Assembly (NCBI GenBank): GCA_025924315.1
Contig: JAICIO010000052.1
Coordinates: 1 to 36,466 of the forward strand
Source: Phycisphaerae bacterium
GTDB taxonomy: Bacteria; Planctomycetota; Phycisphaerae; Tepidisphaerales; Tepidisphaeraceae
Reading direction: 5' to 3'
DNA length: 36,466 nucleotides
Shown here: positions 13,714 to 36,466 of the stretch, piece after piece
Layout of the letters: each line of letters starts with the position of its first letter
Position numbering within the stretch: the stretch's first letter is position 1
The notes under the pieces: model-generated
Databases searched by the model: none
What the model saw: only the letters and a program-made list of their open reading frames with translations
Told to the model about the DNA's origin: nothing
Translations under genes and position numbers: made by a program

Positions 13714-13802
13714 ACTTAGGTGAGCTTGGCCGCTTGCGGCTTAGCGGATTGGTGAGTTGCAATATTTCCCGCTAACCCGCAAGCGGCTAAATTAGCTTAA
13801 GT
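13714..13802. repeat. Imperfect 34-bp inverted repeat (CCGCTTGCGG family)
   Basis: Arms 13714-13747 and 13769-13802 pair at about 27 of 34 positions around a 21-nt loop. The best part is the self-complementary GGCCGCTTGCGG core. The right-arm unit CCGCTAACCCGCAAGCGGC recurs with one change at 35254-35272 inside another repeat. It separates GH127 from the ECF sigma gene and may end the upstream transcript. Confidence 0.8.
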
Positions 13803-26659: not shown

Positions 26660-28806
26660 TGTTTCTCAACCCCCTCATGCTCGCAGGCATCGGCGGCGCA
26701 GTGTTGCCGCTCGTGCTGCATTTGCTCAGCCGCGCGCGCTATCGCACCGTGGCATGGGGGGCGATGATGTTTCTCGAACCGCTCGAAGCGCAGCAGCGGC
26801 AGCACACGCGGCTCAAGCAGATCACGCTTCTGCTGGTGCGCATGGCGATCGTCGCGCTACTGGCGATTGCATTGGCCAGACCGATCGTGCACGGCACCTG
26901 GGGCACGCTCGCGGAAGAGGGTCGCGTCAGCGCAGTCGTCGTCCTCGATCGCTCCGCATCGCTCGCGTACGAGGAGAACGGCCGCCCGCGCATGGAAATC
27001 GCCAAGCAGGCGGTGTCGAACATTCTGTCGAACCTGCGCCGTGGCGATGAAGTCTCGCTCATCCTGATGGGTGGCGAAAAGACGAATGCGGACGTCGTCG
27101 CGAGCAGCGATCTTCAGTCGCTCACCTCGCGGCTCGCGGATCTGTCGCCCTCTTCCGGCAAAGCCGACATTGCCTCGGCTCTCACACAGGCGATGCGCAT
27201 CTTCAATCGCGACAAGAGCAACAATCGAGAGTTGTACCTTGTGTGTGATCGACAGGCGGCGAGCTGGCAGCAGATTAACGACGCGTTCACCGCGTCCTGG
27301 AACAAGGCACGCGAATCGATGGGCGTCGCGCCGCGGTTTGTGGTGGTGCCGGTCGGCGGCGAAGAACGCGACAACGCGCTGATCGAGCAGGTCGTGCCCC
27401 TAAGCAACCCAATCGTTCGCGATCTGCCGACGGACTTTGAGATCCGCATCCGCAACATCGGCAAGACTCCGAGATCCGCGATGCCGGTGACGCTTTCGGT
27501 TGGCGGCAAAGAGGTCTTCCGCACGACGACGAGCCTCGGTCCGGACTCATCCGCGTCGATCGTCGCGACCGTGAAGCTGAGCACGATCGGTTCCCAGATT
27601 CTCTCGGCGCATATCACAAGCGCAGGTTACACCGCCGACGATTCGTTCGACCTCGCGTCGGATGTGGTCGATCCAATCCCCGTGCTGCTGATCAGCGGCG
27701 ACGAGCGCGAAGGCGCGTTTCGCAGCGAATCGGATTACGCGCGGCTCGCGCTGGCGCCGTTCAAGACCGTCGGCGAAAAAGGCCCCGATCCTGCGACCGT
27801 TACGGTGCTTCCATCGGACCAATGGCCGAAAGAAGGGCTCGACAACTTTCGCGTCGTGATCGTCGCGAACGTCGCGCGGCTCGCGCCGGCGCGGATCAAA
27901 GAGTTGGAGGAATTCATCTACAGCGGCGGCGGGGTGCTCTTCTCGGTCGGTAATCTCACGCGTCCCGAGGCGTACAACTCAACCCTCTTTCGCGACCGCG
28001 CCGGGCCGCTGCCGGCGGCGCTTTCGGCGCCGGCGACGTCGCTTCCGAGCGAAGGCACGACGATCGGGTCGCTGCAGATCGATCATCCGATATTCGGATT
28101 TCTCAAGGGCCGCATCGATCTCATCCCCGCGATGGCCTTTGCGCGGTATTGCCCGGCTGACGCCAGCGGCAGCGACGCGCGCGTCATCGCAACCTTCAAA
28201 ACCGGCGATCCATTTCTGATCGAGCGCACCTACGGCCGCGGGCGCGTTCTGCTCGACACGACGACGCTCGACGCCGACTGGAACACGCTACCGCTGACGA
28301 ACTTTTATCTGCCGATGCTGCAGTCCTGCGTCCGCTATCTTGCGTCCGCCAATGCGGTGAATCGAAATCTCTCGCCCGGCGAGCCAATCCTGGCGACGTT
28401 CGATGATGCGATCGAGAACAAGGCGACGGTTGTGCGCCCCGATGGCGCGAGCGAGGTCGATCTGGCGCGCATCGGCGATCGGCTCGAAGCGCGCTTTGAC
28501 GACACGAGCGAGCCGGGAAGGTATTCGATCAAAGTAAAAACGAAGTCCGGCGAGCAGCGTGTGAACTTCGTCGTTGCCACGCCGCGCGAGGAATCCGATC
28601 TCACGCCGCTGGATGAAGCGAAGTGGCAGTCGCTGTCGAAGTCGCTGCACTTCACGCGGATCGATCCCGATCGCGAGAAACTCGCGGCCGCGATCAGTGG
28701 AGGCCGCAGCGGGCGCGAGCTGTGGATGACGATGCTCGCGTGCGTCGCGGCGCTTGCGATCGGAGAGTTGATGCTCGCGCGGCTCTGGACACAGGAGGCC
28801 GCATGA
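26659..28806 (+). CDS. BatA-like membrane protein with VWA domain
   Basis: 715 residues. The N-terminus FLNPLMLAGIGGAVLPLVLHLLSR with WGAMMFLEP is the BatA/PF07584 signature (given in part), followed by a second membrane segment (about 55-75). A periplasm-facing VWA domain follows with metal site DRSAS (97-101), then a CARDB-like beta region (about 250-330; IRNIGKTPRSAMPVTLSVGG) and a glutamine-amidotransferase-like region (about 340-540), ending in one more membrane segment near the C-terminus (LWMTMLACVAALAIGELMLA). The start is ATG 26659; the frame is open to a TTG at 26617, but that stretch is the palindromic repeat. It overlaps the next gene by ATGA. It is likely an assembly or stress protein working with MoxR/DUF58. 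Confidence 0.92.
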   Translation: MFLNPLMLAGIGGAVLPLVLHLLSRARYRTVAWGAMMFLEPLEAQQRQHTRLKQITLLLVRMAIVALLAIALARPIVHGTWGTLAEEGRVSAVVVLDRSASLAYEENGRPRMEIAKQAVSNILSNLRRGDEVSLILMGGEKTNADVVASSDLQSLTSRLADLSPSSGKADIASALTQAMRIFNRDKSNNRELYLVCDRQAASWQQINDAFTASWNKARESMGVAPRFVVVPVGGEERDNALIEQVVPLSNPIVRDLPTDFEIRIRNIGKTPRSAMPVTLSVGGKEVFRTTTSLGPDSSASIVATVKLSTIGSQILSAHITSAGYTADDSFDLASDVVDPIPVLLISGDEREGAFRSESDYARLALAPFKTVGEKGPDPATVTVLPSDQWPKEGLDNFRVVIVANVARLAPARIKELEEFIYSGGGVLFSVGNLTRPEAYNSTLFRDRAGPLPAALSAPATSLPSEGTTIGSLQIDHPIFGFLKGRIDLIPAMAFARYCPADASGSDARVIATFKTGDPFLIERTYGRGRVLLDTTTLDADWNTLPLTNFYLPMLQSCVRYLASANAVNRNLSPGEPILATFDDAIENKATVVRPDGASEVDLARIGDRLEARFDDTSEPGRYSIKVKTKSGEQRVNFVVATPREESDLTPLDEAKWQSLSKSLHFTRIDPDREKLAAAISGGRSGRELWMTMLACVAALAIGELMLARLWTQEAA

Positions 28807-31427
28807 ACATCGGCCGCTTGCTTCTCAATTCACCGAACTTGCTCCCCGCAGTGCTGATCGCGGCGGGATTGGTGTTTATCGTCGTTCTGTGGCTCTATCC
28901 TCCGCAGGTGCGATTGCTGCCGGCGCGGTTTCGGTGGATTCTGCCGGGCCTTCGCGTGCTGGCGCTGCTGGCGCTTGCGTCTGCGATCCTGCGTCCGGTA
29001 ATGATTCGCCCGCGAACGGCCAGCGAGCAAGGCGCGATCGCGGTCATTGTCGATTCGTCGAAGAGCATGAGCGTGGTCGATTCCGGCCGCACGCCCGCGC
29101 AGCTCGTCGCGCTCGCGGATGCAATGGGTCAGCTTCCCCCGGACACGCGCGCGACTCAGCTCTCGCAGATGATCCAGTCGTGGATGGCGCTTCGTCCACT
29201 GGTGGAGGACCTGGCGCTGGCGCGCACGGCGCTCGATTATGCGAAGCTGACGGGACAGGGCGTAGAGAGCGCGCAGCAGCGCGTCCGCACGAGCGGCGCC
29301 GCAATGGCGAGTGCGCTGAAAGTGTTCGCGGCCGAGTCGGCCTCGATTCCCCCTGGCACGAAACTATCCGAGGTCATCAAACAGGTGCACGAGAACCTCG
29401 GACTTGAAGAAGCAAGCGCGACCGGCGCGCTGCGAACAGACGTGCAGCACCTCGGCGACATCATTCGGCAGCAGCAAGTCGCGCGCGATGAGCAGTCCTA
29501 CCAGACGAACCCCGCGGTGCGGGAGGCGTGCGATGAGCTTTCGCGCATGTCGCGGTTCGATCTGGTGCAGCGGCTGCTCTTGCGTCCGAAGACGGGTTTG
29601 CTCGCGCGACTCGGGGCTGAAGCGCCGATCATCGCGTTTTCGCTGAATGAAAAGCTCTCGCCCATTCCCATCGCGACACAGAATGGGGTCGCCAGCGCTC
29701 TGCCGATGAGGCCGGTTGGATTACGCAGCGATCTGACGGGCGGGTTACGCGATCTGCAGGATCAGCTGCGCGGGCAGACCGTGCAGGCGATATTGCTTTT
29801 CTCCGACGGTCGGCAAGTCGGTGGCGAAGCGCAACCCGCGGCGGCGGGGTCCGTCCTCGGTGCGCCGTTATTTGCCGTGTCCGCGGGTGGACAGATCAAG
29901 CGCGACATCGCACTGACGCGGCTCTCGATTCCGGCGAGTCAGTATGTTGGTGAAACGATCACTGTCCGCGCGGACGTCCGCGGGATCGGTTTTCGCGGCT
30001 CGATGCTCGACGTAAAGCTCGATGCGGGTGAGGTGCATGATTCGCGGCGCGTCGCGCTCGACGATCGTCAGCAAGCGACGATAGAGTTTCCGCTCAAGCT
30101 CACGACGCCGGGCGTTGAAAAAGTTCGGGTGAGCATCCCGCCCCAGGAAGGCGAGGCCGCCCTGGACAACAACGCGATCGAGCGGTCGCTGAAAGTGCTC
30201 GCGGACAAGGTGCGTGTGCTGGCGCTGGCGGGGGCGCCGAGCTGGGATTTTCAGTACATCCGCAATTGCCTGAACCGCGCGAATTGGATTCGCTGCCAGG
30301 ATTACATTCTTGACGGCGGCGCACCGCTGGCGCTTTCGCGCGCACAGATCCTCGATCACGACGTCATTCTCCTGTCGGCCGTTCACGAGTCCATGCTGTC
30401 GAGCGAGCAATGGGAGGCGATTGACGAATTCACGAATAGCCGCGGGGGCACGGTCATCGTGATCGGCACCGATGAGTCCGTGCTGTCCGAGTACGCTGCG
30501 AACGAATCGCTCAACGATCTGATTCCCTATCGTCCGCGACAGAATCCGCGATGGCGAACCTGGCCGGGTGAGGACGCGTTCTTTCGGCTCGTTCCTGCGC
30601 CGGGGACCGAGAACATCGATGCGATTAAGCTGGCCGATACGCCGGCGGAGAATAAGCGGCGATGGGAGCAGTTGCCGGCGATGTTTCACTTCATGGCGTT
30701 GCCGGAACTCAAGCCGAACGCACAGGTGCTGCTGCTGGAGCGCGATTCAAATTCGGCGGTGCTCACCGACAGCCGCGTCGGTTCGGGTCGTGTGATGTTC
30801 TTCGGCGCCGATGAAACGTGGCGGTGGCGGGCGAAGATCGGCGAGCGGGATCAGGACCGATTCTGGTTGCAGCTGCTGCGTTACGCGGTTGAAGAGCCGT
30901 ACGCACTGCATGACGGCGATGTTGCGTTCGATCTAGATCGATTGAACGTCGCACCAGGCGAGGCGGTGCGGGCGCGCGTTCGCGCGACGACGCAGCCGTC
31001 GATCGAGATTATGCAGGACGGAAAGGATGTTCGCTCAGTGGCGATGAGCCGCGCTGGCGGTGAAGGTGCAGCCCGATTTGAGGCGACGTTGTCCGACCTG
31101 CCCGTCGGACAATACGACGTGAAGCTGCGCCTCGGCGGTGAAGCGACAAAGCTCGCGCTGCCGCTGACGGTGTCGGATGAGAGCAGTCCGGAAACGCGAA
31201 TTTTGTCCGGCGACGAAGTGCGGCTGGCGAGTCTCGTGGCGGGCACGGGCGGTGATGTCGTCCGCTTGGAAGATGCCGGTCAGCTTCCACAGCGGATTCG
31301 CGATGTCCGCGAGAAGAACGCACGGCCGATCGAGTATTCTCTCTGGGACAGCCCGTACCTGTTCTGCTTCGTGCTTGGGTGCCTCGGCACCGAATGGGCG
31401 CTTCGTAAACGATTTGGCCTCGCATGA
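28803..31427 (+). CDS. Second VWA-type membrane protein
   Basis: 874 residues. Two N-terminal membrane segments (about 13-31 and 46-63) are followed by a VWA-like region whose metal site reads DSSKS (84-88). A helical stretch (about 100-260), a second beta-rich/amidotransferase-like part (about 380-720), and a C-terminal hydrophobic segment YLFCFVLGCLGTEWALRKRF complete it. Start ATG 28803 is firm: AGGAGG lies at 28793-28798, and the ATG overlaps the upstream stop as ATGA. The open frame extends 60 codons further upstream in a different frame of the BatA-like gene and is not real there. Its stop overlaps the next start as ATGA. It is a paralogue-like partner of the preceding protein; specific role unknown. 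Confidence 0.92.
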   Translation: MNIGRLLLNSPNLLPAVLIAAGLVFIVVLWLYPPQVRLLPARFRWILPGLRVLALLALASAILRPVMIRPRTASEQGAIAVIVDSSKSMSVVDSGRTPAQLVALADAMGQLPPDTRATQLSQMIQSWMALRPLVEDLALARTALDYAKLTGQGVESAQQRVRTSGAAMASALKVFAAESASIPPGTKLSEVIKQVHENLGLEEASATGALRTDVQHLGDIIRQQQVARDEQSYQTNPAVREACDELSRMSRFDLVQRLLLRPKTGLLARLGAEAPIIAFSLNEKLSPIPIATQNGVASALPMRPVGLRSDLTGGLRDLQDQLRGQTVQAILLFSDGRQVGGEAQPAAAGSVLGAPLFAVSAGGQIKRDIALTRLSIPASQYVGETITVRADVRGIGFRGSMLDVKLDAGEVHDSRRVALDDRQQATIEFPLKLTTPGVEKVRVSIPPQEGEAALDNNAIERSLKVLADKVRVLALAGAPSWDFQYIRNCLNRANWIRCQDYILDGGAPLALSRAQILDHDVILLSAVHESMLSSEQWEAIDEFTNSRGGTVIVIGTDESVLSEYAANESLNDLIPYRPRQNPRWRTWPGEDAFFRLVPAPGTENIDAIKLADTPAENKRRWEQLPAMFHFMALPELKPNAQVLLLERDSNSAVLTDSRVGSGRVMFFGADETWRWRAKIGERDQDRFWLQLLRYAVEEPYALHDGDVAFDLDRLNVAPGEAVRARVRATTQPSIEIMQDGKDVRSVAMSRAGGEGAARFEATLSDLPVGQYDVKLRLGGEATKLALPLTVSDESSPETRILSGDEVRLASLVAGTGGDVVRLEDAGQLPQRIRDVREKNARPIEYSLWDSPYLFCFVLGCLGTEWALRKRFGLA

Positions 31428-34400: not shown

Positions 34401-35128
34401 ATGTGGCGTTCGGCGCTGACAAGGCCCAAGCGCAGGCGAATGCGGACGCAGCGGACCGCGCCGCGAGCGAGGCCGCAAAGCAGGTCGATCCCGCCGTTGC
34501 GAATTTCATGTCGTCCCGTCTGCGACAGTTCGAGCCAGAAACGAGCGGCGCGCTCAGCGCGATCGAAACGCAGCTTCGCCCCGCGATGAACGCGTTTCAG
34601 CAGGCGATGAAGGTGGGCGATGCGCCGGCCGCGAACGCGGCGGCACAGTCTGCGACCCAGGCAGTTCAAGGGCTCCGAGGACAATTGCTCGGGGCGCATG
34701 AGGCGCTCGCGGAGCCCGATCCGTTGGCGGCGGCGCAGTGGTTCGCGCGGCAGTCCGCGCGAGCGCTGGCGCAGAAGGATGCAAACCCGCAGGCGGCGCA
34801 AGTCGATCAATCGAATGCGGCCATTGCGCTTTCGCGCGCATCGGAAGTGCTGGCGCGCGAGTCGGCGACGGCGCGATTGGCGGCGCTTCCCTCGATGGCG
34901 GGGCTGTTCGCGCCGTCGTCGCCATATGAAACGGCCCCGCAGAACAACGAGATTTTGGGCTTTTTGCCGGGGCTCCCGGCGCTGCGCGACTGGACGACGT
35001 TGCGGACGCGCCCGCCGGATGAGATCAGCGCCGGCAGCCGTGAAGCGGATCCGCCTGGGTATCAGGATGCGTTGCGCGTGTACTTTGGCGCGATCAGCAA
35101 ATTGCGCGAGGGGACGGAGAGGCGATGA
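31424..35128 (+). CDS. Giant membrane-anchored coiled-coil protein (DUF4175-like)
   Basis: 1234 residues. Three membrane segments near the N-terminus (about 33-53, 63-79, 158-178) are followed by beta-sandwich modules (about 200-500; VVSLQLPSTDARLHPRDSLA; VTVAIEAEDRAGQRSASQLL) and then a long Ala/Gln/Glu-rich helical region (about 505-1140) that should form extended coiled coils (EELRESARRAERLIAELGAA). A C-terminal globular tail ends LRVYFGAISKLREG. ATG 31424 overlaps the upstream stop as ATGA, and its own stop overlaps the next ATG. The layout matches large proteins at the end of MoxR/BatA clusters in planctomycetes and some proteobacteria (DUF4175). It may be a periplasmic scaffold; function is inferred only from context. 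Confidence 0.88.
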   Translation: MTMTIGAITSLPPAVHNYVSGFVTRQRRIDALRAIGVALSCAFVWIMWWALFDRFFQFPQNVRTALLGLNLLAVIVICWRPMRALIRREMSWAIASMQIERRNPKFGERLLTITSQLLSPVGHRGSPEMLDQLLHEVAVETSSDRPEKLLPLSLALRPWIVVLSLAFIAVALSFISWIDMPTLLLREVLPLANIRPATTTHLDVKPGNSEVIEGQPLRITVAPQRLGDSGITLRTSTDRKTWTSFAMPYASEGLYAFTIPSIDRDLNYEVAGGDAESETYSVSVLRRPVVTKYELEYAYPAYLNLPKQTVTNTDGAVEAPMGTEATLRITASEPLQSAVMVLGDERIVTEPESDPAVRQARFIVRATGKYDLELVSSHNIPSAGPTGLPIRAITDHPPVVSLQLPSTDARLHPRDSLAVPYQAADDYALASLDANVQVNGSVLRDMSIPVSTNVKEQDGVFSLDLSALDVSIGDVVTVAIEAEDRAGQRSASQLLRVLVSPQTIGAKTANRIEELRESARRAERLIAELGAAQQTMRAPASTSPSDAQPDVTGTSRHLANAAEAGRLLSRSLLRSIRQSDSSRLSTALSKQIDTTALVTGQAERIGATASADPAIRATQAQQVQALVDSVKPMQQLLQALAHGEAAAALEADRHNVAAAQRAVEQRGEPARNEFREAVDQAQKSVAMGATALGLDPAAPDFDAQLQQRVTTAAQLAASQPAPDVGAMTKQWANSANRADLALDSRLSLLAQAEALRPDAHFVWARDLQLASHAVQHLSAEASAAQPSAPKDQQVVQAVETLAHAHEATKNAPPAPPSAESEAARQQLRALAGESEGDGSLQRNENATMDATAAAVSKKFDAAKAIDRGATTSPGSTTLPANSSGPAEQSLGAAQQLDELETVEKTLREETLKATSDTQARLAQQQDQLADRIEEIRRQRSPELGEDSAGDFNSRNKAMAAVRAMQQRAAALPQQFEEAQKAAESARKAHAAANVAFGADKAQAQANADAADRAASEAAKQVDPAVANFMSSRLRQFEPETSGALSAIETQLRPAMNAFQQAMKVGDAPAANAAAQSATQAVQGLRGQLLGAHEALAEPDPLAAAQWFARQSARALAQKDANPQAAQVDQSNAAIALSRASEVLARESATARLAALPSMAGLFAPSSPYETAPQNNEILGFLPGLPALRDWTTLRTRPPDEISAGSREADPPGYQDALRVYFGAISKLREGTERR

Positions 35129-36387
35129 AAGGGTGTGCCGCGCGAGAGTTCGGGAACGATCCTCCCTCTCCCCATCGGGGAGAGGGCAGGGGAGAGGGGC
35201 GAAGGGCGCTCAATGTCGACGATGGTACTTGGCGCGGAACGCGTATGAACGTTCCGCTAAGCCGCAAGCGGCGTGACGTGGCGCGATTTGTGCAGGTAAC
35301 CGTCCATCGACTCTCGCGCCGCTCGCCCCTCTCCCCCGCCCTCTCCCCGGTGGGGAGAGGGAGGACGCTTCTCGTGTTGATCTCGCTGACCTTGCTTTCA
35401 AGCATCGTTCGCGCGCAGGTGCCGACGACTCAACCCGAAGTTTCTCCCGGCGTCGATAGTGCGATCGCGAAAGGCCTCGCCTTTCTCGATCGTCAGCAAC
35501 TGGAGAACGGGTCGTTCAGCAATGGTGACCTGCGCTGTGCCATGACCGGGCTTGTGTTGATGTCGTTTCTTTCGGTTGGCAATACGCCCGACGTTGGCAC
35601 ATATGGCTCGACCGTTCGCCGCGCGCTCGATTACCTGGTCGCGTCGTGTCCGGCGAATGGGTATTACGGGGCCGCCGATAACTCACGAATGTACGGGCAG
35701 GGAATCGTTACACTCGCGCTGGCGGAGGCGTATGGGGTCGAAACCGACGAGGCGTCGCGGGTGAAGTTGCGCGCGGCCCTGGGGAAGGCAGTGGGGGTGA
35801 TCGTCGCGGCGCAGAATGTGAAGAAGGATGACAACTCCGCCGGCGGGTGGCGCTATCTGCCGGAATCGACGGACAGTGATCTTTCGCTTTCGGGTTGGAA
35901 TGCGCTGGCGCTGCGGGCGGCGCGCAGCGACGGCATCGCGGTGCCGGATGACAGCCCGCCGCGAACAGTGCAGTTTGTGCTGAAGTGCTGGAATGCACCC
36001 GCTTCTGGATTTTCGTATCAACCGGGCGGCGCTGCTTCGCCGGCGACGAACGCGGTAGGAATGCTCGCGCTGTATCTGCTCAAATCGGCTGATCGGCCCG
36101 AGCTTGCGCCGGCGACGAAGTTTCTGGTGGATCATCCGGTCACGCCCGGCACGCGCTTCCCATACTACAGTTTCTATTACACGACGCAGGCCGCGTTTCA
36201 TGTCGGCGAGCCGTCGTGGAGTGTCGTGTGGAAAGCGACGCAGGAACAATTGCTCAAGCTGCAGGAAACCGACGGCGGATGGTCAGCGAGCCCGACCGCT
36301 GAAGAGCCCGGCCGGATCTACTCGACGAGCATGGCGCTGCTCACGCTGAGCGTGCCGTACCGGTTGTTGCCGGCCTATCAGCGCTGA
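35125..36387 (+). CDS. Secreted toroid-repeat protein (prenyltransferase/squalene-oxidase-like fold)
   Basis: 420 residues from ATG 35125. Several QW-like alpha-hairpin repeats of the alpha/alpha toroid are seen: GLAFLDRQQLENGSFSNGD, NSAGGWRYLPESTDSDLSLS, SGFSYQPGGAASPATNAVGM and LQETDGGWSASP. No cyclase or prenyltransferase catalytic motif (DxDD type) is present. Start choice is the puzzle: ATG 35125 overlaps the previous stop as ATGA with GGAGAGG before it, but a 206-bp palindromic element fills codons about 12-81. The hydrophobic core LLVLISLTLLSSIVRAQ follows it. An alternative is GTG 35374 (337 residues), for which the repeat's edge GGGAGG is a ribosome site. Last gene of the coupled run; periplasmic role inferred. 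Confidence 0.88.
   Translation: MKGCAAREFGNDPPSPHRGEGRGEGRRALNVDDGTWRGTRMNVPLSRKRRDVARFVQVTVHRLSRRSPLSPALSPVGRGRTLLVLISLTLLSSIVRAQVPTTQPEVSPGVDSAIAKGLAFLDRQQLENGSFSNGDLRCAMTGLVLMSFLSVGNTPDVGTYGSTVRRALDYLVASCPANGYYGAADNSRMYGQGIVTLALAEAYGVETDEASRVKLRAALGKAVGVIVAAQNVKKDDNSAGGWRYLPESTDSDLSLSGWNALALRAARSDGIAVPDDSPPRTVQFVLKCWNAPASGFSYQPGGAASPATNAVGMLALYLLKSADRPELAPATKFLVDHPVTPGTRFPYYSFYYTTQAAFHVGEPSWSVVWKATQEQLLKLQETDGGWSASPTAEEPGRIYSTSMALLTLSVPYRLLPAYQR
35160..35365. repeat. 206-bp palindromic element within a 5' coding region
   Basis: 42-bp arms 35160-35201 and 35324-35365 pair at 40 of 42 positions. Each arm includes its own hairpin (CCCTCTCCCC with GGGGAGAGGG). Between them lies another repeat unit, CCGCTAAGCCGCAAGCGGC (35254-35272), also found at 13769-13787 with one change. 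No stop codon interrupts the toroid-protein frame. No target-site duplication or transposase is seen. Confidence 0.93.
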
Positions 36388-36420: not shown

Positions 36421-36466
36421 AGGCTCCTGCCGAGCCGTTTGCTCCCAATCGGCTCGGCAGGAGCCT
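36421..36466. repeat. Perfect 17-bp inverted repeat at window end
   Basis: AGGCTCCTGCCGAGCCG (36421-36437) and its exact inverse (36450-36466) flank a 12-nt loop. It follows the toroid-protein stop by 33 nt and could terminate the long operon. It runs to the last base, so the right edge may extend further. Confidence 0.88.

Follow-up and report, generated by a model that had tools for sequence, protein, structure and literature searches.

Palindromic elements inserted in frame into genes are best known from Rickettsia, which has a reduced intracellular genome. REPINs consist of two inverted palindromic units with a spacer and are mobilised by RAYT transposases. According to passages of PMC10969869, Rickettsia palindromic elements (RPEs) are ~150 bp long, many of them lie in frame in unrelated genes and each encodes a conserved peptide; the same passages present MITEs as short non-autonomous elements able to fuse with host ORFs. 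Passages of PMC3733652 state that proteins decorated N-terminally by RPEs have been reported to be expressed in vivo. They further describe GTAG/CGTC REPs and their dimers as small palindromes in inverted pairs, located for the most part between genes close to gene ends and in some cases within genes; intragenic examples come from several phyla, with DNA repair genes as frequent hosts and tRNA synthetase genes also represented. These passages also warn that many REPs at the 5' ends of ORFs may not be coding.

We analysed a window of 36,466 nucleotides, the whole of a stretch of DNA from a Phycisphaerae bacterium (GenBank assembly GCA_025924315.1, contig JAICIO010000052.1, positions 1 to 36,466 of the forward strand), whose last gene carries a palindromic element near its 5' end. 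The genome measures 6.6 Mb and is of planctomycete type. Like the RPEs (roughly 100-150 bp), the element is a hairpin-forming palindrome, somewhat longer at 204 bp and with a sister group of about 137 bp. Its family is likewise found in frame in unrelated genes (9 of 41 members, in nine different genes), in one element frame with a conserved peptide (PSP/PAP..GEG; 9/9 by eye, 7/9 by script). The likeness is drawn from these features, and the present family differs in that its host belongs to a different phylum and most copies are intergenic. With the GTAG/CGTC REPs it shares repair and synthetase hosts (MutL, DNA ligase, a DinB-family polymerase and ValRS), but the listed ends, compared by eye, have no common GTAG or CGTC tag. 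As in REPINs, the units form inverted pairs, and the genome encodes Y1_Tnp proteins (10 matches); however, no Y1_Tnp locus here bears element ends (0/10, up to 1.5 kb per side). In the comparison with MITEs, neither a parent insertion sequence nor an unambiguous target-site duplication was found, and inspection of the flanks by eye gave no consistent duplication. Within the open-access literature, covering planctomycete cases and in-frame elements generally, we recognised no report of this family, nor one of a transposase in frame within a tRNA synthetase of the type seen in genome G012 (see below). In-frame palindromic insertion is known from Rickettsia, and this planctomycete family is a new member.

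A palindrome in the leader of an exported-protein gene

The window terminates in an operon with ATGA overlaps at 28803-28806, 31424-31427 and 35125-35128. An earlier note on this DNA had observed that ATG 35125 uses the same overlap as the two preceding junctions and that the frame stays open through the element, and both observations held: from ATG 35125 the frame is open up to the stop at 36385-36387 (Table 1). Searches of Pfam and NCBIfam with the encoded exported protein yielded no family match; the gene is conserved in Phycisphaerae, and several relatives keep the same upstream gene before it. On the 3' side of this last gene, inspection revealed a perfect 17-bp inverted repeat (AGGCTCCTGCCGAGCCG) at 36421-36466, exactly at the contig end, which may be a terminator or a further repeat at which the assembly broke off.

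Table 1. Features of the element-bearing gene (positions in the window).
Feature	Position	Strand	Remark
Exported-protein gene bearing the element	35125..36387	+	420 codons counted from the coupled ATG
GGAGAGG, ribosome-binding site of ATG 35125	35116..35122	+	Anti-SD duplex -7.8 kcal/mol, partly unpaired
MKGCA, putative ancestral leader start	35125..35139	+	Cf. MIRGCA in the G008 orthologue; aligned by inspection
21 bp apparently inserted along with the palindrome	35140..35160	+	18/21 match to the interior of another member
Palindromic element, 204 bp	35161..35364	.	In-frame reading PPSPHRGEGRGEG...SPLSPALSPVGRGR
Left arm (inner hairpin CCCTCTCCCCATCGGGGAGAGGG and second half)	35161..35202	+	
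Inner motif CGCTAAGCCGCAAGCGG, itself repeated	35255..35271	+	69 exact genomic copies
Right arm, last bases GGGAGG	35323..35364	+	Buried ribosome-site-like sequence at 35359-35364
Putative remainder of the ancestral signal peptide, TLLVLISLTLLSSIVRAQ	35365..35418	+	Sequence and orthologue comparison
GTG, alternative downstream start (rival reading)	35374..35376	+	

The element had been described as 206 bp long with 42-bp arms, spanning codons 12-81 approximately. We measured a core of 204 bp, or 206 bp when the outer T/A pair is counted, which covers codons 13-80. Of the 42 positions in the outer 42-nt arms, 40 are complementary, while 100 dinucleotide shuffles gave no arm above 29; the arms extended to 59 nt are 86% complementary. 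The element RNA has a predicted fold of -159.8 kcal/mol. The sequence GGGAGG, which the note had placed near GTG 35374, is present nine bases before that codon. The 21 bases adjoining the palindrome on its left (35140-35160) seem to belong to the insertion; their match to the interior of another family member is 18 of 21, a score reached by none of 200 shuffles (maximum 16) nor by any of 200 21-mers taken from coding sequence of the window. An identity with an Rfam family was rejected, the search having returned only microRNA families far below the cut-offs, which we took for chance matches to a G/A-rich palindrome.

The earlier note had proposed a comparison of orthologues for the presence of the element and the length of the leader. 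Six orthologues were aligned, all from other genera and 47-57% identical. The element is absent from all six (6/6), and their leaders are far shorter than the unusual 97 residues counted from ATG 35125. Conserved residues shared across this stretch were not found in the six, and the possibility that the element is ordinary conserved coding sequence was rejected because the orthologues lack it. The mature part of the protein is conserved, and the gene is intact over 420 codons.

In genome G008 the orthologue likewise begins at the ATGA overlap, with the sequence MIRGCATLILVLAGSSLAYAQ; the order in the window is MKGCA, 75 codons, TLLVLISLTLLSSIVRAQ. Judged from these sequences, an ancestral leader in which MKGCA directly preceded TLLVLISLTLLSSIVRAQ would have been interrupted behind codon 5 by an insert of 225 bp (35140-35364; 75 codons in open frame), the insertion point being taken from this one orthologue aligned by eye and placed differently by MAFFT. 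Because the relatives belong to other genera at the above identities, they offer no precise near-relative empty site for comparison. At the same junction in three other genomes (L013 and L014 in G022 and G001, L016 in G013), tandem repeats of the ATTTTGC type were seen by eye in the leader or the junction, as was a GAATGAAGAA/TTCTTCATTC repeat.

A dispersed family and its members inside genes

The DNA of the element gave 60 matches in its own genome. A 53-base model of the terminal unit gave at least 124 (E <= 0.01), many of them as inverted pairs, and this count is a lower bound because 150 of 1567 candidates were scored. Complete members are inverted pairs of the terminal unit, with units of about 50 bp and complete elements of 115-367 bp, and they fall into two length groups of about 201-204 bp (the window's group, aligned from five members, one of which is 251 bp) and about 137 bp. 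By eye, the copies mostly end in CTCCC/GGGAG or TCCCC/GGGGA. Among 61 genomes, 4 contain the exact core of the terminal unit: the present one at 16 places, and three from other families at 4, 1 and 1 places. None of the family's 25 further genomes has it, against 3 of the 35 from outside the family. Elsewhere in the window (13730-13786) lies an inverted pair of the CGCTAAGCCGCAAGCGG motif, its copies ~40 bp apart. Similar pairs recur in the genome, and such pairs are a second small palindromic family.

We examined 41 complete members, namely that of the window and 40 fetched ones, with pairs chosen by eye; unpaired terminal units and two contig-end pairs (C136:20-180 and C166:34-194) were excluded before this count. 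Most family members are intergenic, and for many the nearest called gene end is no more than 25 bases away. Thirty-two of the 41 are intergenic or without a credible gene, and nine lie in long ORFs, the window's gene among them. The remaining in-ORF hosts were assigned by Pfam/NCBIfam as Lnb (L150), DusB-like (L155), a heavy-metal P-type ATPase (CopA-like; L156), MutL (L157), B12/radical SAM (L158), an ATP-dependent DNA ligase (L162), ValRS (L170) and a DinB-family polymerase (L145). The gene caller flagged seven, and L145 joined the set by eye and Pfam. Two further spanning ORFs were not counted, one (L161) with the element upstream of the probable start and the other (L166) antisense to called genes.

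By eye, the element frame PSP/PAP..GEG is common to all nine in-ORF members. A scripted test found this frame open in seven of the nine, with L158 not anchored and L145 anchored on another phase. Among the 32 other members, 8 have open frames in the PSP/PAP..GEG frame and 12 and 5 in the others, and 6 were unplaced; four full-length intergenic copies of the 204 type contain 1-3 stops in the PSP/PAP..GEG frame, in either orientation. The occurrence of nine out of nine in one frame is not chance on a rough estimate of (8/25)^9, about 4e-5, in which insertions are treated as independent. The in-ORF members were detected via spanning frames, which introduces a bias towards open frames, not towards one particular frame.

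Comparison with solved structures placed the element at 259-304 in the P-type ATPase (CopA), where the alignment passes from 254/214 to 304/219, at 497-542 in the DNA ligase (493/362 to 555/380) and at 434-482 in ValRS (413/363 to 485/378). CopA, the ligase and ValRS are continuous around the insert. In DusB the insert starts at 255, and the alignment reaches no further than this point. As a control, 10 intergenic copies with genes on one strand were checked for a gene interrupted out of frame in their flanks, and none was found, L152 being uninformative with no family match. The genes of this genome, essential ones included, seem, as judged by their reading frames, to tolerate such insertions as extra protein stretches.

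Of 294 genomes of the phylum, 15 contain the arm motif of the sister (137-bp) group, four of them in 10 copies or more, and 40 stretches were fetched from five genomes bearing it. One of these, G323 from another family, provided two clear in-frame cases, in an MFS transporter (L229) and in a 4Fe-4S protein (Fer4; L236); the stretches fetched from G256, G180, G097 and G249 contained no countable case. In-frame residence occurs in other genomes but is not the rule.

With regard to mobility, we infer mobilisation by an HUH (Y1) transposase. A search with the terminal-unit model, up to 1.5 kb per side, found element ends beside none of the 10 Y1_Tnp loci and tied none of them to the family; the cognate transposase may lie elsewhere or be missing from the draft genome. 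On contig C169, two inverted copies of a CTAAGCCGCAAGCGG motif were seen at and beside a weak Y1_Tnp match (L045:1641-1962).

Start codon of the element-bearing gene

Probably, translation starts at the coupled ATG 35125 and the element forms an N-terminal extension. On this reading, a mobile palindrome of REP/MITE-like kind, itself non-autonomous, would have entered the signal-peptide sequence of a translationally coupled gene behind codon 5. Because the net insert of 225 bp would be a multiple of three and open, initiation at ATG 35125 would still be possible, and ribosomes ending the upstream gene at the ATGA overlap would still start there. About 75 extra residues, rich in proline, glycine, glutamate and arginine, would then be translated in front of the hydrophobic core. 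A charged GRGR directly before this core would come from the element's right end, so that export could continue via an internal, longer signal sequence. We infer both translation of the insert and working export.

The earlier note had offered two ways in which the repeat could have reshaped the gene, either by becoming the N-terminus of an exported protein or by moving the start. That a repeat is involved is borne out: the element belongs to a dispersed family, lies inside the leader and is lacking in the orthologues aligned from other genera. As to the outcome, the first option is favoured because all nine in-ORF copies, that in ValRS included, share one element frame. The GGAG site and the ATGA coupling are kept at ATG 35125; the very stable hairpin directly after this start and the unusual length of the leader count against translation of the insert.

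The second option has a smaller, though appreciable, chance of being correct. The element would in that case be an untranslated or uselessly translated intercistronic hairpin, with the start at GTG 35374 or TTG 35377 (served by GGGAGG), at GTG 35350 or at ATG 35245. The calculated duplex is stronger at the GTG 35374 site (-11.9 kcal/mol) than at that of ATG 35125 (-7.8 kcal/mol), and passages of PMC3733652 describe REPs at 5' ends that may have no coding role. However, the part of the earlier note in which the right edge of the element created a new ribosome site for GTG 35374 fared less well. GGGAGG is fully paired in the predicted fold (unpaired probability zero), and because most copies terminate in GGGAG or a near variant, the sequence represents no special adaptation. 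Moreover, the leader from GTG 35374 would be MLISLTLLSSIVRAQ, which lacks a charged n-region, having no charged residue before the core. A start at GTG 35350 would yield MGRGRTLLVLISLTLLSSIVRAQ, a good-looking signal peptide by eye, but this codon is without a ribosome site. With a moved start there would also be nothing to keep the frame open, and it is nevertheless open.

It is improbable that the hairpin serves regulation, reducing or uncoupling expression of the operon's last gene through polarity or mRNA stabilisation. The great stability of its RNA at a gene junction and the position of most members between genes, often close to called gene ends, would suit such a role, but orthologous operons do without the element and the family is scattered beside unrelated genes. 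Least probable is that the insertion damaged the gene or that the repeat is an assembly artefact, as might be suspected from the unusually long leader in a draft MAG of 262 contigs with 4.59% contamination, because the gene is intact with a conserved mature part and the copy is unlike every other found (best 76% over full length), which excludes a mis-join of identical repeats.

Repeats at the same sites in related genomes

The leader of the orthologous gene in genome G019 (L015), from another genus, contains a different palindrome (TCCCTCCCCCGGAATACCGGGGGC), which has 28 matches in G019 and is in open frame. The ValRS loop was compared in 18 aligned relatives and, counted by eye, is short in 11, intermediate in 4 and long in 3 (G015, G010 and G012); the survey pattern parsed 48 of 80 loci, the other 32 not being read by it. 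The loop of G015 (L250, 1028-1134), also from another genus, contains an inverted pair of the terminal unit of the window's family (E 5.8e-7 and 0.0019), either inherited or independent. That of G010 is another low-complexity stretch.

In G012, which represents a genus different from those of the window and of G019, the ValRS frame (L257:553-4149, contig C157) includes an in-frame Y1_Tnp (RAYT-like) domain with 25.8 bits against a cut-off of 23. The domain is flanked on both sides by palindromic pairs, and the flanking pair has 62 matches in G012 (both strands counted), among them a third such pair further along the same valS frame. By comparison of scores, L257 seems to be the only valS of G012, because the other listed matches to the ValRS query score like other synthetases.

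A still more tentative and rather doubtful proposal is that REP-type elements have made coding sequence a regular home in this lineage. They would insert in frame, in one fixed frame, where essential proteins have leaders or flexible loops, and unrelated repeat families would have re-used the ValRS loop and the exported-protein leader. The transposase of one genus would even lie in frame in what is seemingly the only valS, with its own repeats flanking it, so that careless loss of the transposase would cut an essential gene.

For the in-frame palindromes of Rickettsia, the mode of spread and the tolerance of the proteins are open questions. The same pattern is now seen in a planctomycete-type genome of 6.6 Mb, in one fixed frame and in conserved proteins such as ValRS, and a related genome has an in-frame transposase gene at the same ValRS loop. 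Spread, tolerance and the choice of frame thereby become experimentally testable in laboratory strains.
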